DNA from: an uncultured Gemmiger sp.
GTDB taxonomy: Bacteria > Bacillota > Clostridia > Oscillospirales > Ruminococcaceae
DNA: 49,996 nt
Reading direction: 5' to 3'
Assembly: GCA_947631565.1 (NCBI GenBank)
Contig: CANRLV010000010.1
Span: forward strand, 1-49,996
Shown here: positions 8,936 to 35,253 of the stretch, piece after piece
Layout of the letters: each line of letters starts with the position of its first letter
Position numbering within the stretch: the stretch's first letter is position 1
Notes under the pieces: model-generated
The model's database searches: none
What the model saw: only the letters and a program-made list of their open reading frames with translations
What the model was told of the DNA's origin: nothing
Position numbers and translations under genes: made by a program

Positions 8936-8949
8936 GGTGTGGCTCCTTT

Positions 8950-11411: not shown

Positions 11412-11486
11412 ACGGGTTCTTCCTTTGGGCGCAGGGCGCCGATTCTTGTTTTCATTATCCCATACCGCGGGGGATGCTGTCAATAG

Positions 11487-11512
11487 AAAAAACCTTCCCC
11501 CTGAGGGGAAGG
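11487..11512 (-). terminator. Intrinsic terminator of pilus gene cluster
   Basis: Minus strand CCTTCCCCTCAGGGGGAAGG and then TTTTTT, 33 nt after the last minor pilin gene. It separates the pilus genes from the c-di-GMP operon. Confidence 0.85.
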
Positions 11513-11545
11513 TGGCTGCGAAAGCGGCCGGATGCGGGGAAAATC

Positions 11546-12127
11546 TCACCCGCCGGCTGCCGCGCTGCCGGCGCCGTTGAGGGGCACAACGGTAAAATCG
11601 GCGCTCCACAGATCGCGGCCGCCGGTGTCGGCCACGGTCAGGTGCACGGCTACGGTGGCATCGTCCGTGCCGGTTTTGTCCACGGTAAAGGTCAGGTCGG
11701 AGAAATGCAGGTCACGGTACATATCCCCGCCCAACACCTCGCGCAGGACGGGGTCCGCACCGGCGGTCTCGGTGCGCTCCATGACCAGCCGCCCGGCGGG
11801 CACGGTGCGGCCGGCGGGGGTCTTGTACTCGCCGGTGCCGCCCGTTGACAGGCGCAGCGTGCAGCCCCGGTCAAACAGCGAGCTGTCCATCGTGACCTTG
11901 TTTTTGGCCGCCTCGATGCCGCGCCCGAAACGCAGCTCGTCGGCGACAGCCTCGGCCGCGGCGCTGGCCAGCACCTGCGCGTTGGACACCTGTATCATGC
12001 GGTTGCGCACGGCGAGCACGGCGGTCACGCCGGCGGTACCGGCGGCCGTGACCAGCGCCAGTATCATCACAGCGATCAGCGTTTCCGCCAGCGTAAAGCC
12101 CGTGCGGCGGCGCAGCTTGCGGCGCAT
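11546..12127 (-). CDS. Minor pilin-like protein (PilW/GspJ-type)
   Basis: This 193-residue prepilin has a short basic leader MRRKLRRRTG, a cleavage site G^FTLAETLIAVMILALVTAA with Glu at +5, and then the hydrophobic assembly helix. The remainder is beta-rich with a Cys (DRGCTLRLSTGG) and AVHLTVADTGGRDLWSADFT near the end. Size and position as the last of three minor pilin genes resemble GspJ/PilW. The ATG at 12127 is chosen because AAAGGAGTCAGGCCG precedes it; an ATG at 12145 overlaps that ribosome binding site. It should be processed by the prepilin peptidase at 29800-30591. Confidence 0.85.
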   Translation of the reverse strand: MRRKLRRRTGFTLAETLIAVMILALVTAAGTAGVTAVLAVRNRMIQVSNAQVLASAAAEAVADELRFGRGIEAAKNKVTMDSSLFDRGCTLRLSTGGTGEYKTPAGRTVPAGRLVMERTETAGADPVLREVLGGDMYRDLHFSDLTFTVDKTGTDDATVAVHLTVADTGGRDLWSADFTVVPLNGAGSAAAGG

Positions 12128-12167
12128 CGGCCTGACTCCTTTCACGGTAAAGATGGCGCCATGGGCA

Positions 12168-12566
12168 TCAGCCGCCCCCGCCGCCGCCGCCGCCGGGCGA
12201 GACCGGCGTCACTTGGTAGGACAGCAGGTGGTCGCCGCCGTACAGCGTTACGTTGGCGGACAGCTCCTTCTTGGTGTCCCACGTCACCTCGTTCGTAACG
12301 GGGTCCGGCGGGCCCGGCTCCTTCACGGCAATGTCGATGGCATAGCCGCGCGCCGGCACCGTGCCGAAGGGCTGGTGCTGCTCGGCGGCCGAAAGCTCTT
12401 TGTAAAAGCGGGTGTCCTGCGTGCGGGTCTCCATATCGATGCTGCCGGCCGCCGAGACCATGGACGCCAGCAGCAGTACCGCCAGCGCGATGACAAGCAT
12501 GGCGACAAGCACCTCGGCAAGGCTCTCGCCGCGGCGGTTGTGCAGTTTCCGGCGCAGGGTGTGCAT
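12168..12566 (-). CDS. Minor pilin-like protein (PilV/GspI-type)
   Basis: This 132-residue protein has a pilin-type leader MHTLRRKLHNRRG followed by ESLAEVLVAMLVIALAVLLL. The residue after the cleavage Gly is Glu rather than Phe/Met, but a Glu is kept near +5 and the hydrophobic helix is complete. The body contains TRTQDTRFYKELSAAEQHQP and a YGGDHLLSYQVTPVSP strand, and it ends in eight consecutive Gly residues. AAGGAG precedes the start. It lies between two other minor pilin genes, 12 nt after the PilX-like gene, which supports a role in the pilus-priming or tip complex. Confidence 0.8.
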   Translation of the reverse strand: MHTLRRKLHNRRGESLAEVLVAMLVIALAVLLLASMVSAAGSIDMETRTQDTRFYKELSAAEQHQPFGTVPARGYAIDIAVKEPGPPDPVTNEVTWDTKKELSANVTLYGGDHLLSYQVTPVSPGGGGGGGG

Positions 12567-12578: not shown

Positions 12579-13637
12579 TTAATAGATGCGGGTCACGACG
12601 GGGTTGTTGTCCTTCCAGGAGACGGTCACGGTCACGGTGTTCTCGGTGATGCGCCGGCCATAGCTGGCGGCCGTGCGCAGGACATCCGTGTCAAACGCGG
12701 TGCTGCCCTCCTTCAGGGTGCTCGGCACCAGGGCACTGGGGTCCTTCGCGAAATCGTCCTCCACGGTCACGCTCGTCGCGATCACGCGGGTCACCTGGGC
12801 GGGCAGCTCAAAGGCCGTGGTGTACAGCATGGTATCGGTATCGGCGTCGGCGTCGGCGGGCTCCTCGCTCACATCGATGCGCAGGCCGTAATCGCCGATA
12901 TCGCTCACGTCCGCGCGAACGGTGCCCAGGACGGTCTTCCAGCCGTCCCAGGCCGCAGCGTCGCTGCCGGCGGGCGCCTTGGTGCTGTCCTGCCCGGTGA
13001 TGACAAGGCGGCGCACCTCGGTATCGGTGGGGCTGTCCATGGGCCCGGTGCCGGCGTTGGAGGCCGTGTCGGTATAGGTGTGCTTGCCGGTCTCGTCCTG
13101 AAAGGTCATGGTATCCGAGCACTTAAAAAAGTACGAGGGCACATCGCTTTGCAAAAAGGAAGCGGAAAAATAGCTGTCGGGCAGCAGCGTCTCCATCAGG
13201 GCGGAGACGCTGCCGGTCTTTTCGACCTTGCAGGCCTCCAGCGGTGAACGGTGGAACGTGACGGAGGCCGAGGTGTCCCGGTGGCCGTCTTCGTTGGCCG
13301 GAGGATCGACGAAGGTATACTGGTTCAGGCTGTACAGCGTATAGGGTATCGCGGCGCCCTCGTCAGGCTTTTTGACGTACCACCAGGTATAGGTGTGGCG
13401 CATGGTCAGCCGGATCTGGATCTCCTGTTCGTGCAGCTCGTCACGCAGCAGCGTGGCCGCCGACGCGGCCGAAAGATATTGCTGCTGGTCGCGCTCCAGC
13501 CGGGCATAGCGCCCGGCGTTGGCGGCCGCCGTGACCAGCGCCGCCACCCCGGCAAAGGCGCACAGCATGAACACCAGCAGCGCGAAGATGATGGACGCGC
13601 CGCGTTGGCTCTGCAGTTTTTTGGCAGCGGTGTGCAT
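12579..13637 (-). CDS. PilX/GspK-like minor pilin
   Basis: A protein of about 352 residues has an N-terminal region HTAAKKLQSQRGASIIFALL continuing VFMLCAFAGVAALVTAAANA. This is a pilin-type leader with hydrophobic helix that lacks the usual Glu at +5, as in GspK/PilX. The large ectodomain contains LRDELHEQEIQIRLTMRHTY and further beta-rich sequence ending in ENTVTVTVSWKDNNPVVTRI. AAGGAG lies 9 nt before ATG 13637 and only 3 nt before ATG 13643, so the second ATG is preferred. Following the giant pilin-leader protein and preceding two other minor pilins, it probably belongs to the tip complex. Confidence 0.75.
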   Translation of the reverse strand: MHTAAKKLQSQRGASIIFALLVFMLCAFAGVAALVTAAANAGRYARLERDQQQYLSAASAATLLRDELHEQEIQIRLTMRHTYTWWYVKKPDEGAAIPYTLYSLNQYTFVDPPANEDGHRDTSASVTFHRSPLEACKVEKTGSVSALMETLLPDSYFSASFLQSDVPSYFFKCSDTMTFQDETGKHTYTDTASNAGTGPMDSPTDTEVRRLVITGQDSTKAPAGSDAAAWDGWKTVLGTVRADVSDIGDYGLRIDVSEEPADADADTDTMLYTTAFELPAQVTRVIATSVTVEDDFAKDPSALVPSTLKEGSTAFDTDVLRTAASYGRRITENTVTVTVSWKDNNPVVTRIY

Positions 13638-13694
13638 GTGCATGGGCTCCTTTTAGAATAGGCTTCCCCCGGAGGGGGGAGGCTTGCGCGCAGT

Positions 13695-16600
13695 CTACGC
13701 CGGCGGGAAGGTGCTTTGCGGCGCGGCGTTCGGGTCATCCGCCGGCTCGGCCGGCGGCGCGGGCACAGGCACGGTGGGGTCCTGCGGCGGCGGGTCCGGC
13801 TCGGTCGGCGCGGATGTGGGCTCCGGCGGCGTCTCGGGCGTCGGTTCCGATGTTGGCTCGGGCGTCGGGGTCGGGGTGGGTTCCGGGGTCGGCGCGGGCG
13901 TTTCGGCCGGGCCGGGGGTTTCGGCCGGGCCGGGCGTCTCGGCCGGGTCGGGCGTCTCGGCCGGGTCGGGCGTCTCGGCCGGGTCGGGGGTCGGCGTCGC
14001 GCCGCTTTCGGGCGTGGCCGTCCCCGGGGCCGCGCTCTCGGGCGTGGCGGCCGTTTCGGGGGTCGCCGTCTCGGGGGTGGCGGCCGTCTGCGGCGGCGCG
14101 CTGTTCTCGGGCGTGGCCGGGTCGTCAATGGGGACAGGGATAAAGGGCGCATGGCCGTTCAGGTCCAGGGAAAAGCCCATCGGTGCGTTCGGCCAGGTGC
14201 CGTAGTGCACCAACACATCGGTATAGGACCCGTCGGTTTGCAGCTGCTTGCCATTCACCACAGCCTTGTACGGGTAGGTGCTGCCGCCGCCCTGCGGCGT
14301 CAGGCCGTTGGCGCCCGGCAGGTAGGTGTAGTCGGCGTTCTTTTCCTCCGTCAGCGTTTCCGCAGGGGTGCCCTGGTAAGCCAGGCCGTCGAGGGTCGCA
14401 GCGGTCATAAGGTCCTTCAGGTAGGCGTTGCGTTGGACGGTGTCGGTGCCGCTGCCGCTGCCGGAAGCACTGCCGTAAATGGGATAGACCTGGCCTTTGG
14501 TGGTCGTGTTTATGGCCGTGGTATCCAGATAGGTATAGCTGTCCTCAATGGTCACGTGACCGGGGCCTTCTGTGTTATAGCCGAGGATGCCGCCGACAGT
14601 GACATTTGTTGCAGTACTCTGCACCTTGACACTGCCGCCCGCATAGCTGTTTTCGATCTTTATTGAGTAGTTGTCGCTGGACGTATCGGCGCGGCCGACC
14701 AGACCGCCGATCATGATATCGCCGTTTGCGTTGGCGGCATCCAGAACGTTGACGGCGGCGGATTTTTCGATGGTAACACCCCAATAGGCGTTGCCGACCA
14801 GACCGCCGATGGAAGCATACTTGGAATCCGAGTCGCTGCCGGTGCCGCTGTTCTGGATGGTATAGCCGGCCACGACACAATTCTTGATCTTGACCAGGCC
14901 CGTAGTATAGCCGACCAGACCGCCGGCGCCGCAGGGAGACGAATCGATCGCAGAGATCGAAGCCGAGCCGTCGGGCGAATACAGCACGATGTTTTGCAGG
15001 GTGCCGCTGGCGCTGGCGAACAGGCCGACATCGCCCTCGCCCTCTATGCTCAGGTTCAGAATATGGTAGCCGTCGCCGTCATAGACACCGGAGAATCCTG
15101 TCGGCGCGGTGTAGCGGGGCACCGTGCGGGACGTCGTGCCGCCCGGGACCGGGACCACAATAGTAGTAGTATAGTCCTTGCCGTACAGGTCATGGCTCTG
15201 CTTGAAGTACAGATTGCAGTTGACCGGGATGTTGTCCAGCTGCTGTACGGTGCGGATGAGGACGGGGGCGCTGCTTGTTGTGCCGAACGTACTCGTCGAT
15301 ACGCCGGCATAGCCGTCGGTATAATAAAGGGTGCTGGTGCTGCCGGTCTGGCCGAAGCCGGAGAGCGATTTGCATTCCGGGGAGCCCGTGTCGGGGGTCG
15401 GGTAGACCGCGAACACATCGGGGTCGCCGCCCAGCAGCGCGAACACCTTGCTGCGCACGGCGTTGTACTGGTCCGTGCTCAGGCCGCCGGTGTAGCTGGC
15501 CGCCGTGTCGTAGGCCTGCAGGCCAAGGCTGCCCGGGTCCGGCGCGGCCGCGGCGGACTTGTCGCCGTTGTAGAGCACATACCCGCTGGCGGCGATCTCG
15601 TCCGGTACGGGGGTGATGGCGCCGTCATCCATCATATGGCGGTCGGCGCACAGCGTGTTGAAGCTGCCGCCCGGCAGGTGGTAGCCGGCGTCCTTCGCGT
15701 CGTCGGCGTCGTCCGGGCCATTACCGTCCAGCTTGATGCCGTCGCCGGTCACACCGACCAGCTGGTAGGTGACGTTGTTGCTCCCGTCCAGCTCATAGTA
15801 CAGCAGGCCGGAGGCCTTGGCGGTGGCACGCGGCCAGTCACCGTAATGCACATACGCCGTCAGCGGGTCCGTCTGCGCAAGGCCCTTGTCCTTTTTGGCG
15901 TCGAGCTGGACGGAGACAACGGCCTGCAGCGGATACCTGCGCGTGTTGGCGGTCAGGCCCTTCACGCCGGTCGTATCGGCCGCGTCGGGCAGGTAGGTCC
16001 TGTTGGCGGGGAGCGTGCACCGCGTGAGCATCCCGTCAAGGTCAAGGCCGTCGCCCTGGTCCTTGGTCACGGCGCCGGTGGGCAGGTGATCCAGCGCCGA
16101 GAGGTAGTAGCAGTTGACGGGGGCGTTATCCACATGCGTCTGGCCGAGGGCGTATACGCTGCCGCCGGTCACGCCGTACAGGTCCATGTAGGAGTAGCTG
16201 TCGGTCGTGGTGATCCCGCTGCCGCTGTCGTGCCCGGCGCCGTAGATGCCGCCGGCATTTGCCCATTGGCCGGTGACGGTGCCGCCGGCATAACAGCCGG
16301 TGATGCTGCCCCGGCCACATCCGGCAATGCCGCCGGCACTGGTGCCGGTACCGCTGCCGGCCACGCTCAGATCGACGTAGGCCTGGCAGTTTTTGATGGT
16401 AGCGTTGTTGTTCGAGAGTTGGCCCGCGATGCCGCCGACATACCCGGTGCCCGAGATACCGTACCCGGCCACGGCACAGTTTTCGATGGTAAGGTTTTTG
16501 TTAGCGGAAGCCACGATGCCGGCGGCATTGCCGGAGGTGGAGGTGATCTTCGCGCTGCCGTCGGGCGAGTAGAGGATGACGTTCTTGATGGACGCAGTGG

Positions 16601-19600
16601 CCTTTATAGCACCAAAGAGGGAAGCATTGGCGCCGCTGATATTCAGGTCCAGGATGCGATAGCTGCGGCCGTTATATTCGCTGAGGCTATCCTCCAACAC
16701 GAGAGGCGCAATGGTATGCCCTCTCCCGTCAAGGTCATGTGTCTGGGTATAATATTTATAGTCGTTTTCCTTGGAAAGCTCGCTCATGCTCTGCAGCTGC
16801 TGCACCGTGCGCACGTTGAGCGCGTCGGCTTCCTTGTTCCCAAATTTCGTGCTCCTGCTGCTGATGGCCTTGCCGAACCGGGTGTTGACGCAGGCCTCGA
16901 GGGCGCTGCCGGACACGGTGTTGCCGGAGGTCCCGGCGGCCGGGGCCAGCTGCCAGTTCGTGCTGGTGGCGGCGCTGTTGGCCTTCGCGGTCACGTTCAG
17001 ATCGCCGGCGGCGGTGCTCAGGGCCCCGGCCAGCGCATTCTCCAGACCGGCGGGGACGGCAGAATCGGTAACGTCGGCGCCGCTGCTGAAGGTGAAGTTC
17101 GTATCCTCGTCCTTGGGCCAATACACACCGTAGCCGGCCTCGGCGATGTCGGCGCGCTCGCCGGTCAGGTGGTGGTCATAGCAAAGGGTATCCAGCAGCA
17201 GCTGCGCCGTGCCCAGCTTGTTCCTGACGATCTCGGCGCCGTACAGGTAGAAGTGCCAGGTCCCGGGCTCGGCCCCGTTGACGGTCTCGCGCTCATAGTA
17301 GAAGAAGCCCGCCGTCTTTACGGCCGGGACGGCGCCGTAGTGGACCCTGCTGCTGCCGTTCTGCACGAAGGCCGCGAACGGGAAGCGGGTAAAGTCGTCC
17401 TCGGCGTCCACCCGGTCGGCCAGACCGCTGGCGCGGTGGTCGACACCGGCGGTGGTGGCCTCGTCGGGCACATACATATCGTTGACGGGCGTGTCAAACG
17501 TATCCTGCGCGTCCCACTTGAGCCGGGTGAGCGCAGTGCCGGTCACGCCGCTGACGGTCGTCACGGTCACATCCGCCGGCATACCGTCGGCCCAGTATTC
17601 GGCCAGCTTGCTGTCCGTCGTCACCGTGCCGCTGCCGATGCCGCAGACGGCAGGCTTGCTCATCAGGTCGGTCATATTGACGTAGGAATATACATTCGTG
17701 TAGATGGCGCTGCCGCCGCCGACCAGACCGCCGACGGTGGTGGGGCTGCCGGCCATATCGCCGCCGGCATAGCTGTTGGCAACGGTCAGGCCGCTGTCCG
17801 CACTGCCGACCAGGCCGCCCAGGGTGCTGCCCGTGAGGGTGGCCGTGGCCTCGCAGTTTTGGATGGCGCCCGCGCCCGTGCCCGTGACCGTGCCGGCCAG
17901 GCCGCCGGCGGTGTCGGCATTGATGCTGTACCCGGCGACGGCGCAGTTCTGCAGCGTGCCGCCGTTGAGCACGGCGGTGATGCCGCCGGCCGTGCCGGTG
18001 CCCTTCATCTCGCCCTTGCCGGTGGGCGAGTAGAGGATAAGGCCGTCCACGGCGGCGCCGCCCGTGACCTCTTCGAACACGCCGGCGTCCGCAAGGCCCG
18101 CCTTCACGGCAAGGTCCAGCACACGGAAGCCGTTGCCGCTGTAGGAGCCGCCGTCCAGCCTGGGCGGCGTATAGTCGCCGTCCAGCGTGACCGGGTCGGC
18201 GCCCGATACGCCCGCGACGGGCACGATATCGTGCGTCTGCTTGTAGTATTTGCCGTTCTCGGCGCCGACGCTGGCCAGTTGGCCGGTCGTGCGCACCGCA
18301 TAGGGCTTGTCGGCGCTTTGGCCAAGGGCCTCCGCCGCTGTCTTGTTGGTATTCAGCGTGTCGGCATAGCCGAGCTTGAAGTAGAGGTCGGCGCCGCTGC
18401 TCCCGCCCAGGTCGACCTCCTGCAGGGCGGCGCCCTCGCAGGCGTACAGGGCATAGGTATAGGCGGTGTCGCCGCCGAACCGCGCCTTCAGCTCGCCGAG
18501 GATGGCATCGTTGATCTTTGAACTGGCGCCAGTCAGCGCCGGCAGGGAATGGCCGGCAGGGCCGAACACCGCATATCCGGCGGTGACGGACTTGCCGTCG
18601 GCCGTCGTCTCCTGCACAAGGCAGTTCTCGGTCTCGAACGTGCCGTCCGCGGCGTCCGCGGCGCGGGCGATGTAGTGGTACCGGAACACGGGGCTGCTGC
18701 CGTCGGCATTGGTCTCGCGCTCCCAGTAGATCACGCCGGTATAGTCCTTGGGCTCCACCCAGTCGCCGCGGTGCACGGTCTGGTTGGTCTTATAGGGGAA
18801 CGGGGAAGCCAGTTTGCTGTCATACGGGAAAGCGGTCTTTTTGCCGGCGTCCGCCAGCGCCGCCGGCAGGCGCGCGCCGGTCATGGCATAGTGGCCCTCG
18901 CCGCGCGGCAGGACCGTCGTTTCCTTGCCGCAGGCGATGCCGGTGGCATAGGCCACGGCGGCGTCCGTGGTGTGGGTGTCCTTCTGATAGTTCGCCACGG
19001 CCCCGTCCCAGATGCTGTCCGGGCAGGCGCCGGCGAACAGGCCCAGGCCGAACGCCGTATCAGCGTCTGTGCTGCCGCCTGCCTCGGTCATATTGGGCGC
19101 GCTGACCGAGCAGGTGCTGTACAGCACGCCGCCCACCCGCAGGCTTTCGTTGCCCAGGCGGCCGGCAAAGCCGCCCGCAAAGGCCTTCTCCTGCCTGGCG
19201 ATGACGTTCCTGTCGCTGATGTCGCCGTCGTATTGGCCGCGCACGGTGTGGCCGCCGGCGTAGCAGTTGACCAGCGTCGGGCCGTTGCCGTAGCCGACGA
19301 AGCCGCCCGCGTATTTGCCGGCCTGCACGCGCACCGCGGCATAGCAGTCCGTGACCTTGACGCGCTTGCCCAGATACCCGGCAAAGCCGCCGGTGCGGTC
19401 ATTTTTGCCGTCGGCGACGTTGACGCCGGTAGTCTGATACTTTGCATCCGTGGTATAGACGCCGACGTTGGTGATGGTCGTCGTCGCGGGCGCGGTGACT
19501 TCCGCAACATAGCCGAACGCGCCGCCAAAGCAGATATTTTCCTTGGAAACCGCCTTGATGGTGACGGTTGGCTCGATGATACGAACGTTCTGCACCGTCG

Positions 19601-22600
19601 AGTAGTCCTTCAGCACGGCGGCGAGGGTGCCGCCGTACTGGTTCGCCTTGGTCGTGGCGGTGCTGCCGTTGGAATAATCGTTCAGGGTGGGCTTTTCCAG
19701 CACAAGGTTCTCGACCAGCGCGGGTATGGGCGTGGCCAGGGGCGCGCCGGTGACGGGGTCCACGGTGCGGCCCTGCACAAGGGCGAACAGGCCGAGCGAG
19801 ACGACGTCGCCGGTATCGCTGCCCAGGAAGAGGTTGCTGACGGTGTGGCCGTAGCCCTCAAAGGTGCCGCCGTCGAGCACGGCGCCGCCCTGGCCGTACT
19901 CCGCCCGCTTACCGGCATAGCCGGTATCGTCGACCTTGTTGGGCTTGACGCCGTCAAAGATGGAGCCGGCATACTTCGCATAGTCGACATCCAGCAGCAG
20001 GCGGTAGGTACAGGCGCGCAGGGTATCCTTGTTAAAGCCCTTGTTGCCGTCACGCGTATACCGCACCATCGCGGCCAGCTGCGCCGCGCTGCGGATAAGC
20101 ACGCTGCTGTTGTCGTCTTTGGCGGTAAAGCTCTCGGTCTTGGGATCCGTGCCGGTGGCCGCGAACGTATCGGTATCGGATCTGTAGGTGCGCTCCACAA
20201 AGCGGATGCCGCGCTTGTCGCGCAGGGTCTCGTTGTCAAAGACGTACTTGCCGTCCTTGAGCTCATAGCTGCCGTCGGCCTTCTTTTTCAGCAGGCCGAT
20301 GTTCACGGCCTCGCAGGCAAAGTACGGGTTGAGCAGCCCGTCCTGCCCGTCGATGGTGATGGGCAGATAATAGGTGTTGGCCGGCGCCATATTGAGCGTC
20401 TTGTAGGAGATGGGATAGGCGTAGCGGGCCTGGCACGCGTCGGCGCCCTGCCATTCCGCGGGCAGCAGATACCGCTTCTCTTTTGCAAGCGTTTCGCCTT
20501 CTTGGTCCTTGCCGCCCTTCAGGTCTGGATCGGTCTCGTTGGGGTCGCCGTATTCCGTTTCGATATGGAACTCGATATCCCCGGCGCCCTCGGGGGCCAG
20601 CACCATGTAGCCGCTTTCCTTGACCAGGCCGGTGGCGCTCAGCGTGTTGACGACGCGGCCCTCCGGGTCGGAATCGTCATACAAAATACCGTACAGGCCG
20701 AACACCTCGCCGGTGCCCGGGTCGTGGGCCTCGCTGTCGTCCGGGAACATCTCCTTCGCGTGGTCGTCCGGCTTGGGGTCGCCCGTGCCGTTCAGGTATT
20801 TCTCGTAGTAGATCAGGTTGTAGCGGTGCGGCCAGTCGCCGTGGTGCACCGTCTGCCCATTGGTCACCGGGTAGGGGTAGTTTTGGCCCAGATAGGGGTA
20901 GGTGTAGGTGTCCGTGCCGTTCACCGTCGTTTTGGCGTCGTCATAGGTCTTGGCCAGGGTCTTGCCGGGCTCGCCCAGCACCAGGTTGCCGTCCATCAGG
21001 TAGGGGTCGGCCTCGGTGGAGGGGTCGCCGGTCTCTTTGCCCAGGGCATAGGCCTCGCAGTCGTCGTGGCCCGTCCAGGGCACGGCGGAGCCGCCGGAGC
21101 TGGACTTTTTGTTGTCCAGGTGGGCAAAATAGCGCCCGGCCCGACTGCCGTTGTTGCCGTTGCCCGTGCCCGCCTTGACCGAGCAGGTGGAATACACCCG
21201 GCCCTGCAGCTTGAGGTTCGCCGTGCCGTAGTCGTTCTCAAAGACGGCGGCGAACCCGCCGGCGAAGGCGCGCAGATCGTCGCTGTCGCCCGTGGCGGTC
21301 ACGTTGGCGGCGCCCTCGCCCGCATACAGGCCGCTGGCGGTGTGCCCGCCGGAATAGCAGTCCGCGACGGTAACGCTGTCCAGGATGCCGGCAAAGCCGC
21401 CCGCCTGGCGCATGGCCTGCACCCTGACGGCGGCAAAGCTGTTTTTCAGCGTGATGCGGTCGCCGCCGGCGGCGGAAGCAAAGCCGATCAACCCGCCCAC
21501 ATAGTCGTTCCCGGTATCGCTGCCCACGGCGACCAGGTGGAAGTTGCTCACCACGCCGCAGCTCTTGTAAAGGGCATCGTACCCGCCCTTGTTGATCTCG
21601 TCGGCGGCGGTCACCTCCACAAAGGCGCCGCAGCCGTCCACGGTCAGGGTGGCCGGGTCCGACACGCCGCTAAGGCTGCCGACCAGCGCGCCGGCGCGCA
21701 CGCGGGTCCTGACGGCGCTCGTGTAATCGGGCAGCGTATTCGGCACCGTGACGGTGGGGTTGATGAGCATGATGCCGCTCAGGACCGCCTGGTTGGAGCC
21801 GGAGGCCGTGACCGAGCCGAACAGGCCGGCATAGACAGTGTCGCCCTCGACCCGCGCGCCGGCGTACAGGCCCTTGATGGCATAGCCGTGCCCGCGGTAG
21901 CTGCCGCCCGCGCTGAGCGTGATGGGCAGCTGCGGGTCCGCGGCGGTCTTGCCCACGCCGGTGGTGCCGCCGGCGCCGCCGGCGGCGGTGGTATCGTTGT
22001 TGGCGCGGCCGGCGGTCAGGCTGGCCGTCTCATACAGGCCATAGTCGATGTCCAGCGTCTGCGCGTACACGCGGCCCTGCGCGGCGGCGCGCAGCGCGTC
22101 GGCGGCGGCCTTCGCGGCCGCTTCCTCGGCGGGGTCCATGCCGGGGGCGGCCGTAAAGGTATAGTTGGTATAGGCGGCCATCTGGCCCAGGTGGCGCGCC
22201 GTGCGCACCAGCACAAGGTGGGGCGTCGCCTGGTCGGCGGCGTCGCCGGTCTGCGTGCCGCCGGGCGTGAGCGCCGGCTTTTCCAGCGGGGCCGTGGCGG
22301 CGGCCTTGGCCTGCACGGCGGCGGGCGCGGCGGTGGCCACGGCGGCGGTGACCTCAAAGGCCTCGCAGGCAAAATGCGGGTTGAACAGGAAGGTCTTGCC
22401 GCCCGCGCCGCCCAGGGTCAGCTTGTGGTAATACCCGTCGACCGGGATATCGTCGGCCTTTATCTTGTAAACGTAGTTGTAGCCGGGCAGCGTGGCCGGG
22501 GTCGTGATGTTGCCCGCGGCGTCGTGGGCGGCCGGATGGAAATCGCCATCCGGCTCCAGCGTAAACGTGGCGGCGCCGTCGTCCAGCGTATACTCCAGGC

Positions 22601-25595
22601 TGCTGCCGGTCAGCTCCGTGGGCGAGATGATGCGGTAAAAATCGTTGATGGCATACACGCGGTCGCCGGGGTCGGCCTCGGCGCCGCCGGTGGTGTCGTC
22701 CTTCAGGGTGCCGTCGGCCGTCACCTTGCCGGCGGCGTCCATCGTGGCCGCATACCAGCCGTAGGTATCGCCGACGTACTGCTCCACATAGGCCATATGC
22801 AGCTCGGGCAGCTTGGCGGCGCTCTCCAGCCAGTCACCGTAATGCAGCATCGGCACATACACCGCGCCGGCGGTGATGGGAGTATCCGGGTCCTTGGGGG
22901 CCTTGAGCTCGCCCTGGTCCTGCCACATCGCCAGCTGCGGGTATTCATACGGGGTGGCCGGGAACTTGCCGTCGTTGCGGTACATACCGTAGGGGAACAC
23001 CGCGTAGGTGGGGTTGAGCTTGTCGCTGCCGGTGGGCACATACCAGCCGTTGGCCTGGGTAAAGGCATACGTCCCGCCGCCGCCGACCTCCTTCTTCAGG
23101 TCGTCGGTGCTGACCGGCGTGCCGTACTGGGTCCGGGTGCCGGCGTACTGGCAGCCCTGCTGCTCGATGTACAGCGCCTTGCTGTTCTCGTTCGTCGAGG
23201 TGCCGTACAGCTTGACGGCGGCGCCGGCCGCTTTGGCCTTTTCCACCAGCTCGTCGCTAAAGCGCACGGCGGCATAGTTGATGTTCGTCTTCTCGGCAAA
23301 GCCGGCGTTAAAGTCCTTGCTATCGCAGATGATGCCGGCGGCCCCTGTTTGGGCATCCGCGATATAGCCGGCCGCATAGCAGTTTTGGACGGTGCAGTTC
23401 CCTGTGCCGACCAGCCCGCCGGCATAGGCGGAGTCCACGATATAGCTGGCGGCGTGGCAGTTGGTCAGGGTCGTGCTGTTGGCATTGCCGACCAGCCCGC
23501 CGGTGCCCTCGTCCCAGATGAGAGCACTGCTCTGGCCCTTGACCACGGTGGCGGCGGAGCAGCTGATGAGCCTGGTGCCGTCCTGCGCCCTGCCGACCAG
23601 CCCGCCGGCGGATTCGGAGGGATCTTCCGTAGTGCCGTTCTCGGTGACCACATGGGCCTTGGGGGGCGCGGGGTCGCTGCCGCCGGCCCCGCCGGCGGAT
23701 TCGTCAACAGGGTAGGGGATGCCGTCCGCGGCGTAGGAGAGATAGACGCGGCAGTTGATGAGCGTGGTATCCTGGGTCAGGGCGGCCAGCGTGCCGGCGC
23801 GGCGGCCGTAGCGCGACCAGGAGTTGACGAGCGTGACGTTGCGGACCTCGCGGGAGCGGGTCGTTTCGGTAAAGCTTCCGTCGGTGTTGTTACGGATCTT
23901 GCTGACGATAAAGCCGAACAGCCCGGTGTTGGGCCGCCTGTTGTCCTGTGCCTTGCCGAAGCGCAGCACGTTGGTGTTCAGGTTGCGGATGGACAGGCCG
24001 CGCCCGTCAAAGACCTCCAGGTCACCGACGGCGTTGCAGTAGATGCTCTCAAAGCGGTGGGGCAGCGCGGCGTCCGCGGCCTGGGCAGAGTTCGTGCTGT
24101 TGTAGGTGGCCATGCCGTTGAAGGAGGTATCCGTGCCGTAGCTCTGCTGCCAGGAGCGGGCGAACTCACCGGCCTCCTCGTTGACGAAGTCAAGGGCGCG
24201 GATGAGCTCGGCTTTGCGCACAGGCATATCCAGCCCGGACAAAAACGGGGTATAGCTGCCGTTGCGCGCGGTGTTCGTATAGATGCCGTTGACGTGGGTG
24301 CACAGGTTCTGCAGGTGGCGGCAGTAGGTCAGCTTGGCGGTGTAGGTGCCGGAGCCCGGGGCGGTCTCTTCAATGGTGCTGAACAGGCTGTTGGCGTTGA
24401 CGAACACCGGCTCGGACTCATAGTAATGCTGGCCGTCGTCATAATACAGCTCGACCTTGACGGTGATGTTCGCGCCGGGGCGGACCCGGGCGGCCGCGCC
24501 GCTGCCGGAGTCGAACGTATATTTGCGGGCGGCATAGGAGTTGGCGGGTTTGGGCGCGGCGTTATCGATCCAGACATTGTCGTCCGGGGCGGTATAGCCC
24601 ACCCATTCGCGGAACTGCCGGCAGCCCAGCAGCTTGGCGCCGCTTTTCGCGCTGCCGATGTTGGGGCCGTACAGGTTGTTCATCGCCTCGATGGGGTAGG
24701 CGGCGTCCAGCAATACATCGCCGACGGCGTCGGCGCCTACGGTGCGCTGCAGCCGGGTGTCGGTGTCGGCGTTGGCGGGCAGCAGGACGGCGTCGGTCTT
24801 GCCGCCGGCCAGGGGCAGCTCCACCCAGGGGGTGTCCTCGGCCGCTTCCCGCTCGCGCACGCTCACCCGCACGCCGATGTACTGGTTGTAGGTGGGGTCG
24901 CTGGCATCGGCCGCGGCGGGCACGGTCACACGCAGGCGCAGCACCTCGGCGTTCAGCAGCGACACGCGCGGGATGGGCAGGTCGCTGACCTCCGGCCGGT
25001 CGACGGTGCTGCCGCCGTAAAAGCCGACGAGGGGATGGCCCCTGTCATTCAGGCGGGTCTCGAAGTCCTCCTGCCCGACCTCACGGGGTTGGTAATCTTT
25101 TTTGTAATCAAAGCCGTCCTCGTCGGTATACCACACGCCGTACACGGCGCCGGTCCGGCGCGAGAACTCGACCACATAATGCCCGGCGCGCAGCTTGCTC
25201 TCGATGGCGCCGAAGGGCAGCAAGCGCTCCAGGTCCAGGGCGATGTTCGTGTCGCCGGCCTCGTCGCTGTTCAGATAGCTCAGCTGAACGTAGCCGATGG
25301 CCTGGTCGGGCTCCTGCTCGGCGACGTCGCCGCCCACCTCCAGACTAAAGGTGTTGGAGTCGGTCTTGAGCAGGTCCATCTCGCCGGAATTGAACATCTC
25401 GGTCAGGCGGTTTTGCGCGGCCATAAAAATGGACTGCGCGTCGGTATCCAGCGCCTGCAGCTTGAGCCGGCGCACATAGCCAAGGATGGCCGGCACCGCA
25501 AAGGCCAGCAAAATGCCAAGCAGGGCCACGACCACCAGGATCTCCGGCAGCGTGAACCCGCTTTTCTTTTTGGTTTTGCGGCGAATGGATATCAT
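13695..25595 (-). CDS. Giant 3966-residue adhesin-like protein with type IV pilin leader
   Basis: It begins MISIRRKTKKKSG^FTLPEIL and continues VVVALLGILLAFAVPAILGY, a complete class III signal with Glu5. This means it should be cut by the prepilin peptidase and use the pilus machinery. The ectodomain has six modules of about 480-920 residues, each ending in an (F/Y)P...VHYGDWP-type motif (near residues 918, 1583, 2275, 2752, 3250 and 3798), usually followed by a YYE segment. Inside the modules are VRT-QL segments and GLUG-like repeats such as GGLVG...NCYAGG. The last about 145 residues are Pro/Thr/Glu-rich with five PAETP units and no LPxTG or membrane anchor. AAAGGAG lies 14 nt before ATG 25595; no closer start exists. 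Ordinary pilins have about 150 residues. I infer a pilus-tip or surface adhesin. Confidence 0.9.
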   Translation of the reverse strand: MISIRRKTKKKSGFTLPEILVVVALLGILLAFAVPAILGYVRRLKLQALDTDAQSIFMAAQNRLTEMFNSGEMDLLKTDSNTFSLEVGGDVAEQEPDQAIGYVQLSYLNSDEAGDTNIALDLERLLPFGAIESKLRAGHYVVEFSRRTGAVYGVWYTDEDGFDYKKDYQPREVGQEDFETRLNDRGHPLVGFYGGSTVDRPEVSDLPIPRVSLLNAEVLRLRVTVPAAADASDPTYNQYIGVRVSVREREAAEDTPWVELPLAGGKTDAVLLPANADTDTRLQRTVGADAVGDVLLDAAYPIEAMNNLYGPNIGSAKSGAKLLGCRQFREWVGYTAPDDNVWIDNAAPKPANSYAARKYTFDSGSGAAARVRPGANITVKVELYYDDGQHYYESEPVFVNANSLFSTIEETAPGSGTYTAKLTYCRHLQNLCTHVNGIYTNTARNGSYTPFLSGLDMPVRKAELIRALDFVNEEAGEFARSWQQSYGTDTSFNGMATYNSTNSAQAADAALPHRFESIYCNAVGDLEVFDGRGLSIRNLNTNVLRFGKAQDNRRPNTGLFGFIVSKIRNNTDGSFTETTRSREVRNVTLVNSWSRYGRRAGTLAALTQDTTLINCRVYLSYAADGIPYPVDESAGGAGGSDPAPPKAHVVTENGTTEDPSESAGGLVGRAQDGTRLISCSAATVVKGQSSALIWDEGTGGLVGNANSTTLTNCHAASYIVDSAYAGGLVGTGNCTVQNCYAAGYIADAQTGAAGIICDSKDFNAGFAEKTNINYAAVRFSDELVEKAKAAGAAVKLYGTSTNENSKALYIEQQGCQYAGTRTQYGTPVSTDDLKKEVGGGGTYAFTQANGWYVPTGSDKLNPTYAVFPYGMYRNDGKFPATPYEYPQLAMWQDQGELKAPKDPDTPITAGAVYVPMLHYGDWLESAAKLPELHMAYVEQYVGDTYGWYAATMDAAGKVTADGTLKDDTTGGAEADPGDRVYAINDFYRIISPTELTGSSLEYTLDDGAATFTLEPDGDFHPAAHDAAGNITTPATLPGYNYVYKIKADDIPVDGYYHKLTLGGAGGKTFLFNPHFACEAFEVTAAVATAAPAAVQAKAAATAPLEKPALTPGGTQTGDAADQATPHLVLVRTARHLGQMAAYTNYTFTAAPGMDPAEEAAAKAAADALRAAAQGRVYAQTLDIDYGLYETASLTAGRANNDTTAAGGAGGTTGVGKTAADPQLPITLSAGGSYRGHGYAIKGLYAGARVEGDTVYAGLFGSVTASGSNQAVLSGIMLINPTVTVPNTLPDYTSAVRTRVRAGALVGSLSGVSDPATLTVDGCGAFVEVTAADEINKGGYDALYKSCGVVSNFHLVAVGSDTGNDYVGGLIGFASAAGGDRITLKNSFAAVRVQAMRQAGGFAGILDSVTVADCYSGGHTASGLYAGEGAANVTATGDSDDLRAFAGGFAAVFENDYGTANLKLQGRVYSTCSVKAGTGNGNNGSRAGRYFAHLDNKKSSSGGSAVPWTGHDDCEAYALGKETGDPSTEADPYLMDGNLVLGEPGKTLAKTYDDAKTTVNGTDTYTYPYLGQNYPYPVTNGQTVHHGDWPHRYNLIYYEKYLNGTGDPKPDDHAKEMFPDDSEAHDPGTGEVFGLYGILYDDSDPEGRVVNTLSATGLVKESGYMVLAPEGAGDIEFHIETEYGDPNETDPDLKGGKDQEGETLAKEKRYLLPAEWQGADACQARYAYPISYKTLNMAPANTYYLPITIDGQDGLLNPYFACEAVNIGLLKKKADGSYELKDGKYVFDNETLRDKRGIRFVERTYRSDTDTFAATGTDPKTESFTAKDDNSSVLIRSAAQLAAMVRYTRDGNKGFNKDTLRACTYRLLLDVDYAKYAGSIFDGVKPNKVDDTGYAGKRAEYGQGGAVLDGGTFEGYGHTVSNLFLGSDTGDVVSLGLFALVQGRTVDPVTGAPLATPIPALVENLVLEKPTLNDYSNGSTATTKANQYGGTLAAVLKDYSTVQNVRIIEPTVTIKAVSKENICFGGAFGYVAEVTAPATTTITNVGVYTTDAKYQTTGVNVADGKNDRTGGFAGYLGKRVKVTDCYAAVRVQAGKYAGGFVGYGNGPTLVNCYAGGHTVRGQYDGDISDRNVIARQEKAFAGGFAGRLGNESLRVGGVLYSTCSVSAPNMTEAGGSTDADTAFGLGLFAGACPDSIWDGAVANYQKDTHTTDAAVAYATGIACGKETTVLPRGEGHYAMTGARLPAALADAGKKTAFPYDSKLASPFPYKTNQTVHRGDWVEPKDYTGVIYWERETNADGSSPVFRYHYIARAADAADGTFETENCLVQETTADGKSVTAGYAVFGPAGHSLPALTGASSKINDAILGELKARFGGDTAYTYALYACEGAALQEVDLGGSSGADLYFKLGYADTLNTNKTAAEALGQSADKPYAVRTTGQLASVGAENGKYYKQTHDIVPVAGVSGADPVTLDGDYTPPRLDGGSYSGNGFRVLDLAVKAGLADAGVFEEVTGGAAVDGLILYSPTGKGEMKGTGTAGGITAVLNGGTLQNCAVAGYSINADTAGGLAGTVTGTGAGAIQNCEATATLTGSTLGGLVGSADSGLTVANSYAGGDMAGSPTTVGGLVGGGSAIYTNVYSYVNMTDLMSKPAVCGIGSGTVTTDSKLAEYWADGMPADVTVTTVSGVTGTALTRLKWDAQDTFDTPVNDMYVPDEATTAGVDHRASGLADRVDAEDDFTRFPFAAFVQNGSSRVHYGAVPAVKTAGFFYYERETVNGAEPGTWHFYLYGAEIVRNKLGTAQLLLDTLCYDHHLTGERADIAEAGYGVYWPKDEDTNFTFSSGADVTDSAVPAGLENALAGALSTAAGDLNVTAKANSAATSTNWQLAPAAGTSGNTVSGSALEACVNTRFGKAISSRSTKFGNKEADALNVRTVQQLQSMSELSKENDYKYYTQTHDLDGRGHTIAPLVLEDSLSEYNGRSYRILDLNISGANASLFGAIKATASIKNVILYSPDGSAKITSTSGNAAGIVASANKNLTIENCAVAGYGISGTGYVGGIAGQLSNNNATIKNCQAYVDLSVAGSGTGTSAGGIAGCGRGSITGCYAGGTVTGQWANAGGIYGAGHDSGSGITTTDSYSYMDLYGVTGGSVYALGQTHVDNAPVNCYYLSALDHLPTGAVTKDQGDGLDLDGMLTRCTLPANRTYLPDAADTTGVKGLTANTRRYPLQAVVSVQLDAKKDKGLAQTDPLTAYVHYGDWPRATAKASGLLYYELDGSNNVTYQLVGVTGDGIKLDGNGPDDADDAKDAGYHLPGGSFNTLCADRHMMDDGAITPVPDEIAASGYVLYNGDKSAAAAPDPGSLGLQAYDTAASYTGGLSTDQYNAVRSKVFALLGGDPDVFAVYPTPDTGSPECKSLSGFGQTGSTSTLYYTDGYAGVSTSTFGTTSSAPVLIRTVQQLDNIPVNCNLYFKQSHDLYGKDYTTTIVVPVPGGTTSRTVPRYTAPTGFSGVYDGDGYHILNLSIEGEGDVGLFASASGTLQNIVLYSPDGSASISAIDSSPCGAGGLVGYTTGLVKIKNCVVAGYTIQNSGTGSDSDSKYASIGGLVGNAYWGVTIEKSAAVNVLDAANANGDIMIGGLVGRADTSSDNYSIKIENSYAGGSVKVQSTATNVTVGGILGYNTEGPGHVTIEDSYTYLDTTAINTTTKGQVYPIYGSASGSGSGTDTVQRNAYLKDLMTAATLDGLAYQGTPAETLTEEKNADYTYLPGANGLTPQGGGSTYPYKAVVNGKQLQTDGSYTDVLVHYGTWPNAPMGFSLDLNGHAPFIPVPIDDPATPENSAPPQTAATPETATPETAATPESAAPGTATPESGATPTPDPAETPDPAETPDPAETPGPAETPGPAETPAPTPEPTPTPTPEPTSEPTPETPPEPTSAPTEPDPPPQDPTVPVPAPPAEPADDPNAAPQSTFPPA
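13901..13990 (-). repeat. Five 18-bp tandem units encoding PAETPD/PAETPG
   Basis: Five consecutive units of the form TYTCGGCCGGGYCGGGSG (plus strand) encode a PAETP(D/G) hexapeptide array in the Pro-rich tail of the giant protein. In-frame copy-number change would only lengthen or shorten the stalk. Confidence 0.85.
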
Positions 25596-25717: not shown

Positions 25718-26287
25718 TTACGCCGCCGGGGCGTCGTCCATCAGCTCATAGAACGTGATGTTGCCGCTCACGCGCAGCGTGCCGTTCTCAAGGTCGCCGC
25801 CGGCGGGGGCAAAGGTCAGCCCGTCCAGCAGGCAGCGGTAGCCGGTGCCGGTCAGGGCGGCCAGCACCCGGCGCGCGTGGACGTAGTCCGCGGCCGTAAA
25901 GCTGAACTGCACCGGCCGCACCGCCACGTTGCCCTGCGCCTGCACGGGGCTGAAGCTCAGGCTCGGGTCGGTGTCGGCAAAGATATCGTTGAACACGAAC
26001 ACCAGGTTCTCGATGTTGTCATAGCTGGGCAGGACGGTCACGTCCTCGGGCGGCATGGCAAAGATCTCTTCCAGCTCGGCCTTCATGCCGTTGTACACGG
26101 TCTGGCGCGCCTGCGCCACCACGATCTCGTCCTCGACCTCGGCGGCGTCGTACTCGGCCTGCCGCAGGCGGTCCGTCACCGGGTAGTGCACGGCCAAAAC
26201 GTACACGCCGATGACCAGCAGCACCGCCAGCAGCAGCAGCAGCGCCTTCTCGCGGTTCGAAAGCCGCCTCGTCAGCAAATTAAGCAT
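25718..26287 (-). CDS. pilO: Type IV pilus assembly protein PilO
   Basis: This 189-residue bitopic inner-membrane protein has an N-terminal basic stretch, a TM segment ALLLLLAVLLVIGVYVLAVH (about 15-35), a coiled coil DRLRQAEYDAAEVEDEIVVA, and a C-terminal ferredoxin-like region with VRPVQFSFTAADYVHARRVL. This is the PilO layout that pairs with PilN to link the PilM ring to the pilus. ATG 26287 overlaps the 3' end of pilN by 8 bp. A longer frame upstream has no ribosome binding site. It is the last of the pilMNO set. Confidence 0.82.
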   Translation of the reverse strand: MLNLLTRRLSNREKALLLLLAVLLVIGVYVLAVHYPVTDRLRQAEYDAAEVEDEIVVAQARQTVYNGMKAELEEIFAMPPEDVTVLPSYDNIENLVFVFNDIFADTDPSLSFSPVQAQGNVAVRPVQFSFTAADYVHARRVLAALTGTGYRCLLDGLTFAPAGGDLENGTLRVSGNITFYELMDDAPAA

Positions 26288-26927
26288 CGGCGTCGCCCCC
26301 TTCCTGCGCGGCGTTGGGTCCGGCATCCGCCAGCGCGATGGTCAGCGCGGCGGCGTTGCTGTCACCGTAGTTCTCGTCCGAGGCATAGCCGCTGTAGGTG
26401 GCGGTCGAGATCGACACATTGGCCACCAGCGGGTCGGTCTTGAGCCGCGCCATCAGGTCGGACAGCTGGTCCAGCGTCAGGCCGGACACCGTCAGCGAAA
26501 CGCTCTTACCGGCGATGGACAGCGTGCGCACCGTGCCGATGGGGAACACCTCGCGCTCCAGCAGGGCCATCACGTCCAGCCGGTCGGCGATCGTGCGGTC
26601 AAAGCCCGTGTAGGTGTAGCGGTTGTAGGTGGCCTGCACCTCGTCATAGTCGGCATAGCCTTCCTCGACCTCGGCCAGGTACTGGCGGCGGTCCGCCACG
26701 GCGGCCTCGGCCGCGTCGGCTTTGGCAAAGCGGTCCGCCACGGCAAACTTGCCGAACAGCCCGGCCGCCACCATCACGGCCAGCACGCCCGGGATGACCC
26801 GGCTCAGGTCGAGCTCCCGCTTCTCTTTGATGGCAAGGTTGAGCGTGGTCTTGGTCGGCATAACGGCCTTGCGGACCTTTTTCAGGCCCAGCGCGGCCGG
26901 CGCCGCGGTCTGCGTAAGCTGTGCCAT
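26280..26927 (-). CDS. pilN: Type IV pilus assembly protein PilN
   Basis: The protein has 215 residues. The cytoplasmic N-terminus contains TTLNLAIKEKRELDLSRVIP, resembling the PilM-binding INLLP region. A TM helix LAVMVAAGLFGKFAVADRF (about 48-66) and a coiled coil (AKADAAEAAVADRRQYLAEV) follow. The C-terminal alpha/beta domain holds IADRLDVMALLEREVFPIGT, SVSLTVSGLTLDQLSDLMA and DPLVANVSISTATYSG, the Fimbrial-PilN fold. It ends overlapping pilO and starts 15 nt after pilM, which fixes the identity by order. It forms the inner-membrane alignment complex with PilM and PilO. Confidence 0.85.
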   Translation of the reverse strand: MAQLTQTAAPAALGLKKVRKAVMPTKTTLNLAIKEKRELDLSRVIPGVLAVMVAAGLFGKFAVADRFAKADAAEAAVADRRQYLAEVEEGYADYDEVQATYNRYTYTGFDRTIADRLDVMALLEREVFPIGTVRTLSIAGKSVSLTVSGLTLDQLSDLMARLKTDPLVANVSISTATYSGYASDENYGDSNAAALTIALADAGPNAAQEGGDADA

Positions 26928-26942: not shown

Positions 26943-27944
26943 TTACTGTAATACCGCGCCCATCGCGGCGGCTGCCAGCGGGGCATCCTCGGCCAGGCCG
27001 GCCGGCAGGTCCGGCCAGAACTCGCTCATATCCGCAAGCGGCAGCGGCAGCGCGGCGCGCAGGGCCGCCATCAGGGCCGGGTTGAGCACGCCGCCCCCGC
27101 AGCAGTGGATGTGGTCCAGCTCCCGCCCGCCGGAATTGAAGCGCTGGTAGTTCACGGCCTTGAGCACCTCGACCCCGATGGAATTGTACAGCTCGGCACA
27201 TTCCGGCAGCGCGGCCGCGTCCGCATAGTTCTGCATGCGGTAGCTGGCCGCCACGTGGATATCGACGCCGAAATGCTCGGCAATGAGCCGGTCCAGCTCC
27301 CCGCAGCCGTAATCCAGCGCACGCAGATTGTCGAACCGGTCCCCGTCAAACATATACAGGCGCACGGCGTCATGCCCCAGGTCCAGCAGGCAGTGGGGGT
27401 GGGTGTCCGCGTCCAGGCGGGCGGTGCGCAGCAGGTTGATGTACGCCATCTCGACCGGCACCGCGGCCTTGAGCGTGAACCCCGCGCGGCGGAACATGGC
27501 CAGGTAATCGGCCACCGTCATCCTGGCCGCGGCGGCGGCCATCAGCTCGAGCTCACGCGGGGCGCCGTCATCGCCGGGAACGGTATCGACGACGGCGTAG
27601 TCAAAAAAGTAATTTTCCTTGTCCCCGGTGATGTAATCCCGAAACTCATACGGCAGGTTGAAGCGCAGCTGCGCGTCAGTCATGTACGCGGTGGTAAAGC
27701 TGCGGCAGTAGCACGCGGCCGCCGGCAGCACCACCGCCGCCTGCCGCGGCAGGCGGTATCGTTTGCGCATACGCTTCAAAAAATCGGTCATCGCCTCATA
27801 CGAGAGGATCTGCCCGTCACGCACAAGGCCCTCGGGCAGGGGCTCGACGCCGGCCTTGGTCCAGCGCCCGCCCTCGCGCACGGCGATGTGCAGGTTCAGG
27901 CTGCCGATGTCAAAGCCGACGCATTTGCCTTTCAGGTCGCTCAT
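26943..27944 (-). CDS. pilM: Type IV pilus assembly protein PilM (actin-like ATPase)
   Basis: This 333-residue cytoplasmic protein has the actin/FtsA fold: phosphate 1 motif CVGFDIGSLNLHIAV at the start, phosphate 2 HCLLDLGHDAVRLYMFDGDR near the middle, and adenosine motif HIHCCGGGVLNPALMAALRA near the C-terminus. VVLPAAACYCRSF and LMAAAAARMTVADYLAMFRR are typical PilM segments. Length matches PilM (about 350). GGAGGTCTTTTCCCC precedes the ATG. It is the first gene of pilMNO and would form the cytoplasmic ring contacting PilN. Confidence 0.88.
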   Translation of the reverse strand: MSDLKGKCVGFDIGSLNLHIAVREGGRWTKAGVEPLPEGLVRDGQILSYEAMTDFLKRMRKRYRLPRQAAVVLPAAACYCRSFTTAYMTDAQLRFNLPYEFRDYITGDKENYFFDYAVVDTVPGDDGAPRELELMAAAAARMTVADYLAMFRRAGFTLKAAVPVEMAYINLLRTARLDADTHPHCLLDLGHDAVRLYMFDGDRFDNLRALDYGCGELDRLIAEHFGVDIHVAASYRMQNYADAAALPECAELYNSIGVEVLKAVNYQRFNSGGRELDHIHCCGGGVLNPALMAALRAALPLPLADMSEFWPDLPAGLAEDAPLAAAAMGAVLQ

Positions 27945-28639: not shown

Positions 28640-28797
28640 TTGGGTACATTCCTCCTTATAGGAAAACTGCAGCTGCACCGGGGTAACCACTCCCCGGCGT
28701 ACCTATATCCAAATCCGGCGGGTTGTGCCGGAATTTGAAACCCAAATGTTTGCGCAGCAATGTACAAAATGGCCTTGCTGTGTGTCGTGGTCACCCT

Positions 28798-31806: not shown

Positions 31807-31825
31807 AGAGTTCACCTCCGACGGA

Positions 31826-35111: not shown

Positions 35112-35198
35112 CTGTGGACCACCTTTCCGCATCGTGCCAAATTTTGGGGATTTGTGCCCGTATAAACCGAACTCCCTCCCCCCAACGAAAATTTCCGC

Positions 35199-35208
35199 GG
35201 GGGGGGGG
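35199..35208 (-). repeat. Homopolymer (10 G/C) in pilB leader
   Basis: Ten consecutive G on the plus strand (C in the transcript), between the promoter at 35254-35282 and the pilB start. Length change by slipped-strand mispairing would alter leader spacing or structure, not the reading frame. Confidence 0.75.
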
Positions 35209-35253
35209 TGACTGAGAACCAGAGAATATGGACGCTTTAATGCATTTTGTATA

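Follow-up and report, generated by a model that had tools for sequence, protein, structure and literature searches.

The 49,996-nucleotide stretch analysed here (the window) contains a type IV pilus locus. Its genes lie on the same strand in the order PilB, PilT, PilC, PilD, two small pilins, PilM, PilN, PilO, a giant pilin and three minor pilins of K-, I- and J-like type, the last three labels being assigned by position and weak similarity. Strong matches to PilB- and PilT-type ATPases occur in the source assembly only at this locus; the next match scores 35 bits. The features are listed below in gene order, with the giant divided into its parts; modules 2–6 were delimited by motif and module comparison.

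33414..35282, minus strand: PilB extension ATPase with an MshEN c-di-GMP-binding domain
32316..33371, minus strand: PilT retraction ATPase (TIGR01420, 436 bits, cut-off 319)
30592..31881, minus strand: PilC platform protein
29800..30591, minus strand: PilD prepilin peptidase (Pfam A24 domains)
29056..29562, minus strand: small pilin, major-pilin type
28223..28690, minus strand: small pilin, major-pilin type
26943..27944, minus strand: PilM (Pfam, E 1e-12)
26280..26927, minus strand: PilN, by position (weak PilN match, 0.023, below cut-off)
25718..26326, minus strand: PilO, by position (T2SSM 1.8e-4, below cut-off)
25557..25595, minus strand: giant, class III leader peptide, residues 1-13, cleavage expected after Gly13
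25386..25556, minus strand: giant, pilin alpha-1 helix with Glu5, precursor residues 14-70 (Pfam N_methyl)
24336..25385, minus strand: giant, rest of the pilin head and beta-rich region, residues 71-420 (predicted strands)
22791..24335, minus strand: giant, module 1, residues 421-935, GLUG beta-helix (by profile match), ending MLHYGDW
20796..22790, minus strand: giant, module 2, residues 936-1600, ending VHHGDW
18720..20795, minus strand: giant, module 3, residues 1601-2292, ending VHRGDW
17286..18719, minus strand: giant, module 4, residues 2293-2770, ending VHYGAV
15792..17285, minus strand: giant, module 5, residues 2771-3268, ending VHYGDW
14151..15791, minus strand: giant, module 6, residues 3269-3815, ending VHYGTW
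13695..14150, minus strand: giant, Pro/Thr/Ala/Glu tail (by composition), residues 3816-3966, and stop codon, without wall anchor
12579..13643, minus strand: K-like minor pilin, 354 aa, Phe replacing Glu5
12168..12566, minus strand: I-like minor pilin, 132 aa, with Glu5 (weak PilV/GspI similarity)
11546..12145, minus strand: J-like minor pilin, 199 aa (from GTG), with Glu5 (by position; NCBIfam weak, nearest PilV)
9303..11609, minus strand: response regulator-HD-GGDEF protein (Pfam)

The giant gene runs on the minus strand from 25595 to 13695 and comprises 3,966 codons and a stop. An alternative in-frame ATG upstream at 25643 would yield 3,982 residues; the start at 25595, upstream of which GGAAAGGAG is seen by eye, fits the relatives of the protein. 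The precursor begins MISIRRKTKKKSG/FTLPEILVVVALLG. Its short basic leader ends in Gly, and the mature end FTLPE... contains Glu5 and continues into a hydrophobic stretch of about 20 residues, as in a class III prepilin signal. Pfam N_methyl (26.0 bits, cut-off 21.2) and Glug (28.6 bits in six stretches, cut-off 20.5) both match above cut-off, which marks the protein as a modular pilin, and no other Pfam family appears in it up to E = 1. The mature protein has a mass of about 413 kDa and a pI of 4.6, and the giant is more than 15 times the size of a usual pilin.

HYGDW-type motifs are located at residues 918, 1584, 2275, 2752, 3250 and 3797, each closing a module. When the modules are compared with each other, with composition and low-complexity corrections off, 12 of the 15 pairs match at E <= 1e-3 (best E 9e-37). 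The identity is only 21-29%, indicating true but old repeats rather than a stutter of the assembly. Of the final 151 residues, 51 are P, 27 T, 25 A and 17 E. A search of the giant for an LPXTG motif and a C-terminal hydrophobic stretch, as expected of an LPXTG surface adhesin, found neither; the best 19-residue hydrophobic window outside the N-terminal helix scores 1.50, against 3.02 for the helix itself.

A preliminary description of this DNA had read a complete class III prepilin signal with Glu5 on a giant repeat protein in a pilus locus, six modules closed by a VHYGDWP-type motif, GLUG-like repeats, and a Pro/Thr/Glu tail without wall anchor. All of these are recovered here, and the extension and retraction ATPases are both encoded at the locus. 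The description also placed the gene between pilMNO and three minor pilins. This holds for the position, but the first of the three neighbours, the 354-aa protein, has no Glu5 and no N_methyl match.

The same description had called for a search for GLUG and beta-helix folds and for a predicted structure of one module. Our model of residues 1-938 (54 aligned rows; mean pLDDT 76, pTM 0.77) contains a helix at residues 16-70 followed by a beta-rich region, with many short strands at approximately 560-775 that recall a beta-helix. A profile search with the GLUG part found the beta-helix region of the Gram-positive IgA1 protease 7uvl (E 3e-12) and also 3n6z. The best Foldseek matches of the model are also IgA1 proteases (best E 1.9e-3, probability 1.00, TM 0.21), followed by weak matches to tandem FNIII receptors; nothing was found at E <= 0.001, and no pilin is among the best 50 matches. 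It is possible that FNIII- or Ig-like domains sit between the pilin head and the beta-helix in the predicted structure. The giant thus shares a GLUG-type beta-helix domain with the Gram-positive IgA1 proteases (7uvl, 7uvk, 6xja), but has no catalytic domain or HExxH motif and carries a pilin signal instead of a wall anchor. The beta-helices of these proteases, which are the structures related to the module, do not show adhesion.

A scan of public genomes identified 127 related stretches, 80 of which were taken as loci. They come mostly from MAGs named as Oscillospiraceae, Lachnospiraceae and other Clostridia, with some from Erysipelotrichaceae and Coriobacteriaceae, and include some cultured strains, among them Aminicella lysinilytica DSM 28287 (1,418 aa) and Lachnoclostridium sp. 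Marseille-P6806 (3,004 aa); three near relatives (L058, L059, L064) are named as Gemmiger sp. Absence of the signal in homologues would have spoken for a fused or misassembled start. The prepilin motif is present in 78 of the 80 loci, a set that favours proteins with the signal because the pilin N-terminus was part of the search profile. The two exceptions are a locus truncated ahead of the N-terminus and one for which a neighbouring gene was taken instead. Glu5 and Gly13 are invariant in all 54 aligned rows (53 of the 80 fetched loci and the window), an alignment that left out loci without the motif by pattern, as well as cut, skipped or over-long ones (L075, L121).

The commonest form, found in 30 of the 80 loci, is a protein of 725-948 aa with a single GLUG/HYGDW module. 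The length of the modular pilins rises with the number of HYGDW-type motifs, from 1 to 6. The following counts were made with one pattern over the 80 loci and the window, cut frames included, and depend on the pattern (L057 gave 5 or 4 motifs, L061 3 or 4):

One motif: 34 proteins; 30 of 725-948 aa, the others of 1,388, 1,406 and 1,418 aa and a fusion of 3,567 aa
Two motifs: 8 proteins; seven of 1,242-1,728 aa, one of 2,522 aa
Three motifs: 9 proteins, 1,704-2,490 aa
Four motifs: proteins of 2,260 and 3,224 aa and a cut frame of 4,098 aa
Five motifs: one protein of 3,305 aa
Six motifs: the window giant
No motif by pattern: 25 proteins, some long (up to 3,413 aa) with GLUG-like repeats only

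The window protein is therefore near the upper end of a series and not a freak. Of 295 genomes sampled across the order, 39 give a match to the pilin head (E <= 1e-10), in many of them via ordinary small pilins alone. Pilin-headed open frames of at least 1,500 codons (stop to stop, with matches over at least 140 of 207 model positions) occur in 17 of the 295, the window's own genome included. Matches also occur in 24 of 341 genomes sampled across the class and, with a longer profile, in 14 of 35 within the genus, in both cases partly via small pilins. The notion that the giant stands alone at such a size is not supported, given these 17 genomes and a frame of 5,261 codons. The search for giant pilin-leader proteins and their synteny that the preliminary description had suggested finds relatives across Clostridia. 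The family is found across many Clostridia, and their pili probably carry giant sticky proteins. A GLUG family search of the source genome gave no match, the giant gene included, and is unusable as a count.

The frame of 5,261 codons is the largest seen (L140, G187 C14, 4498-19998, plus strand, continuing beyond). It is pilin-headed and follows PilD-PilM-PilN-PilO; the 5,167 codons fetched contain 8 HYGDW-type motifs. Two more giants of 2,260 aa (L138) and 1,780 aa (L139) are present in the same genome; no pilus genes were found in their fetched stretches, as if spare tips were kept. Four genomes of the window's genus (L053-L056) encode a second type of giant pilin, of approximately 3,350-3,600 aa with 22-30 GG-type GLUG-like repeats by pattern, whose BLAST match to the window protein at E 1e-5 is confined to the pilin head. 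At the C-termini of the giants L150, L151 and L152 a hydrophobic patch is seen by eye together with basic residues, in contrast to the Pro/Thr tail of the window protein, and may be a second anchor.

The K-, I- and J-like genes recur beside the modular pilins. In 52 of 79 loci (L118 was left out) all three are found no more than 3.5 kb from the modular pilin gene, upstream in 43 and downstream in 9. In the other 27 not all three were found; many of these are cut by contig ends and some are not (L066, L069). Pilus machinery genes of any kind are visible in 38 of the 79 fetched stretches. Glu5 is absent from the K-like family: it is missing in all 30 aligned rows (the window and 29 chosen loci of 56 K matches) and occurs in 0 of 53 readable frames. 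The three other K frames comprise one with Met, by eye, and two that are cut; in L110 the K-like protein carries Phe in place of Glu5.

A tip complex capped by a subunit without Glu5, on filaments that grow from tip to base, is described in a review (PMC10191384, excerpt). The 354-aa neighbour resembles the Glu5-less member of the HIJK tip complex in this respect. We tried to identify it as GspK, but it scores 14.9 bits with the NCBIfam GspK model (cut-off 130), and neither a PDB chain by profile nor a meaningful fold match was obtained for it. The likeness is therefore one of role and not of family. The giant itself keeps Glu5 and is thus not the Glu5-lacking cap.

Many of the short modular pilins are adjoined by a large secreted-looking protein. 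In most cases the fetched stretch ends within the gene, leaving pieces of 911-3,187 residues; two copies are apparently complete, with 2,429 (L084) and 2,677 residues (L092). The seven whose start lies in the stretch (L084, L091, L092, L097, L098, L108, L133) have a signal-peptide-like beginning by eye. Pfam detects SpaA domains in two of three partners and nothing in the third, with a beta-helix trace below cut-off in one. Examples beside blocks of K/I/J and modular pilin genes are L092:58-8091, L091:12239-21799 and L108:12398-20668. The arrangement of a separate secreted-looking protein beside a short modular pilin resembles that of PilY1/PilC, and the protein is a candidate PilY1-like partner in monoderms.

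In two genomes the pilin and the partner are fused in one frame. In L128:9992-20692, from a Coriobacteriaceae MAG, the pilin occupies residues 1-807 and the partner starts at about residue 900 and continues as far as the sequence was fetched. In L137:2163-10868, from a genome of the window's order, the pilin spans residues 49-752 and the partner follows from 762 on, its match resuming just past the signal-peptide-like start of the free partner. Both fused pilins are complete, including the closing motif (HYGDW in L128, HCGDW in L137), and the two partner parts match mostly different stretches of the free partner. The fusions, as judged from sequence, suggest a physical partnership and point to a partner protein.

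The argument for a partner is built on these two fusions and not on the association of free partners with short pilins. Among the assessable loci, a partner relative lies beside 18 of 27 pilins shorter than 1,000 aa, 0 of 9 of 1,000-1,700 aa and 1 of 10 of at least 1,700 aa (Fisher p 0.003), with homology seeds taken from short-pilin loci. By size alone, counting any neighbour of at least 900 aa, the middle class (1,000-1,700 aa) reaches 4 of 9. The table dropped 34 of the 80 loci, 14 for cut pilin frames, 16 for flanks shorter than 2 kb and 4 for a broken or wrong frame (L060, L072, L079, L118). A tree of the pilin heads, for which long rows were hand-picked and in which L133, L127 and L109 have no head by pattern, splits into two large clades; long pilins predominate in one, which includes the window protein, and short ones in the other. 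The short/long state needs 9 changes on the best tree, with fusions counted as long, and the fusion label needs two. Well-supported branches provide only 2 independent pairs (sign test p 1), too few to test the association. The replacement of the secreted partner by a longer pilin is kept as a lead only, given the biased seeds, the size-only count and uncontrolled kinship.

We propose, with a probability of about 0.68, that the giant is a modular minor pilin of a pilus-tip complex that carries a giant adhesin, here built by module repetition. The proposal starts from the gene and its signal, repeats, family and locus, which are all directly observed. As suggested by the leader and the linked pilD, the protein would be inserted through the membrane and its leader cut by PilD. 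The mature giant would be polymerised by the PilB/PilC/PilMNO machine and would most likely join K, I and J in a complex that primes and caps the pilus, consistent with their linkage, the Glu5-less K and the Streptococcus sanguinis precedent discussed below. A long adhesive fibre would be carried at the filament tip in a single copy or very few. To extrapolate from the model of one module, the six GLUG beta-helix modules and the flexible tail may form this fibre beyond the tip, where it would bind a surface ligand. PilB and PilT would move the giant; since PilT is encoded at the locus, its pulling back of the fibre is plausible.

As a rule, monoderms have no outer-membrane secretin, which would limit size. 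Its absence in these bacteria is also stated in PMC6916266 (excerpt).

The closest known counterparts are PilB and PilC of S. sanguinis, which are modelled at the pilus tip; PilB binds host proteins and PilC glycans (PMC8179133 and PMC9934059, excerpts). Like the giant, each carries a module foreign to pili grafted onto a pilin module, and they belong to a monoderm type IV pilus with few minor pilins (same excerpts). They differ in having one graft each, a vWA or lectin module, with 454 residues in mature PilB, whereas the giant, at about 3,950 residues, carries six GLUG modules. In diderms, PilY1/PilC with PilHIJK similarly involves a large adhesive protein shown by a minor-pilin tip complex. 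However, PilY1/PilC is a non-pilin with a C-terminal propeller, while the giant has a pilin leader and only Glug and N_methyl by Pfam, with no sign of PilY1. To our knowledge, the attachment of monoderm pili without PilY1 has been little studied outside S. sanguinis. PilY1 is stated to be absent in monoderms (PMC9934059, excerpt). CofB of ETEC (type IVb) is likewise a minor pilin with extra domains and appears to carry a secreted partner (PMC8179133, excerpt), although its domains are different.

Modular pilins and the pair of pilin and GLUG are already in print; the size of the giant, the repeat series and the fusions are apparently unreported. We take the InterPro entry IPR011493 to be that of GLUG. 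If so, the architecture of pilin and IPR011493 reported by Raynaud et al. 2021 has the same signature pair as the giant (PMC8179133, excerpt). In the available text, this module is named once, as M26-type; more than 1,200 modular pilins are known and the most extreme multi-domain case has 860 residues, and that text holds no HYGDW module, locus analysis or fusions. In a literature search with most subscription journals and bioRxiv outside its scope, no description was found of giant repeat pilins, an HYGDW series or pilin-adhesin fusions, nor anything apparently related on GLUG with pilin. This agrees with the preliminary description, which knew of no characterised example of such size.

The alternative that survives best is that the giant is a membrane-tethered surface protein, whose pilin N-terminus is mainly a PilD-processed anchor at the cell surface or pilus base, without polymerisation. 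The giants L066 and L069 have no pilus gene in up to 20 kb of fetched sequence, and the C-termini of L150, L151 and L152 could, by eye, be anchors. However, Glu5, which is thought to aid docking into the filament (PMC10191384, excerpt), is kept in every aligned row, the K/I/J genes are linked in most loci, and in the window the whole pilus machine adjoins. We consider a purely tethered protein unlikely.

A role in secretion, DNA uptake or substrate binding, in the manner of a pseudopilus, is improbable. The machine is related to type II secretion and competence filaments, and PMC8179133 (excerpt) describes the beta-solenoid module of ComZ as DNA-related. PilT encoded at the locus speaks against such a role, as do the lack of any enzyme domain by Pfam and the Pro/Thr tail and module repetition, which appear to resemble surface adhesins.

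The available text of PMC8179133 suggests an M26-type peptidase for pilins with IPR011493, and the GLUG modules do match IgA1 protease beta-helices. Yet no M26 catalytic domain is detected by Pfam, and HExxH is absent from the window protein, 80 relatives and 12 frames from other genomes, making a peptidase very improbable. In the S. pneumoniae IgA1 protease, the beta-helix is the N-terminal domain, with catalytic residues in the middle and C-terminal domains (PMC7695701, excerpt). An assembly artefact or chance frame is hardly credible: although the source assembly is MAG-like (140 contigs, 89% complete, 5% contamination) and has long frames on both strands, several other assemblies contain homologous giants, many of which have the same neighbours, and the modules are too dissimilar for duplication in assembly.

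Returning to the adhesin-bearing tip pilin, we tentatively extend it to Clostridia in general, at slightly less than even odds: a K/I/J block with a GLUG/HYGDW carrier pilin would bear a giant fibre as a secreted protein, as a fusion or as a repeated module. With similar reserve, the three ways of mounting the fibre may be interchangeable, the repeated-module way reaching approximately 5,200 residues. If true, this three-way display on a carrier would be a monoderm counterpart of PilY1 display. The family suggests that many Clostridia display giant surface proteins at their pilus tips. Within it the number of repeated modules on a pilin ranges naturally from 1 to 8, and the partners recur; together with the fusions, this opens tip assembly and the limit on pilin size to direct testing.

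Several other features of the window were observed. An Rfam search of the window gave no match. At 38549-45427 on the minus strand, four adjacent frames of 815, 419, 486 and 605 aa, some of them overlapping, adjoin a WCX-domain protein and have no Pfam or NCBIfam match at the thresholds used. A protein at 4890-6293 on the minus strand has DUF5131 in its C-terminal half. The response regulator-HD-GGDEF protein is a possible pilus regulator, and its gene is followed by that of a hybrid histidine kinase (6290-11609 region). The MshEN domain of PilB and the nearby HD-GGDEF and histidine kinase genes indicate possible control of the pilus by c-di-GMP.
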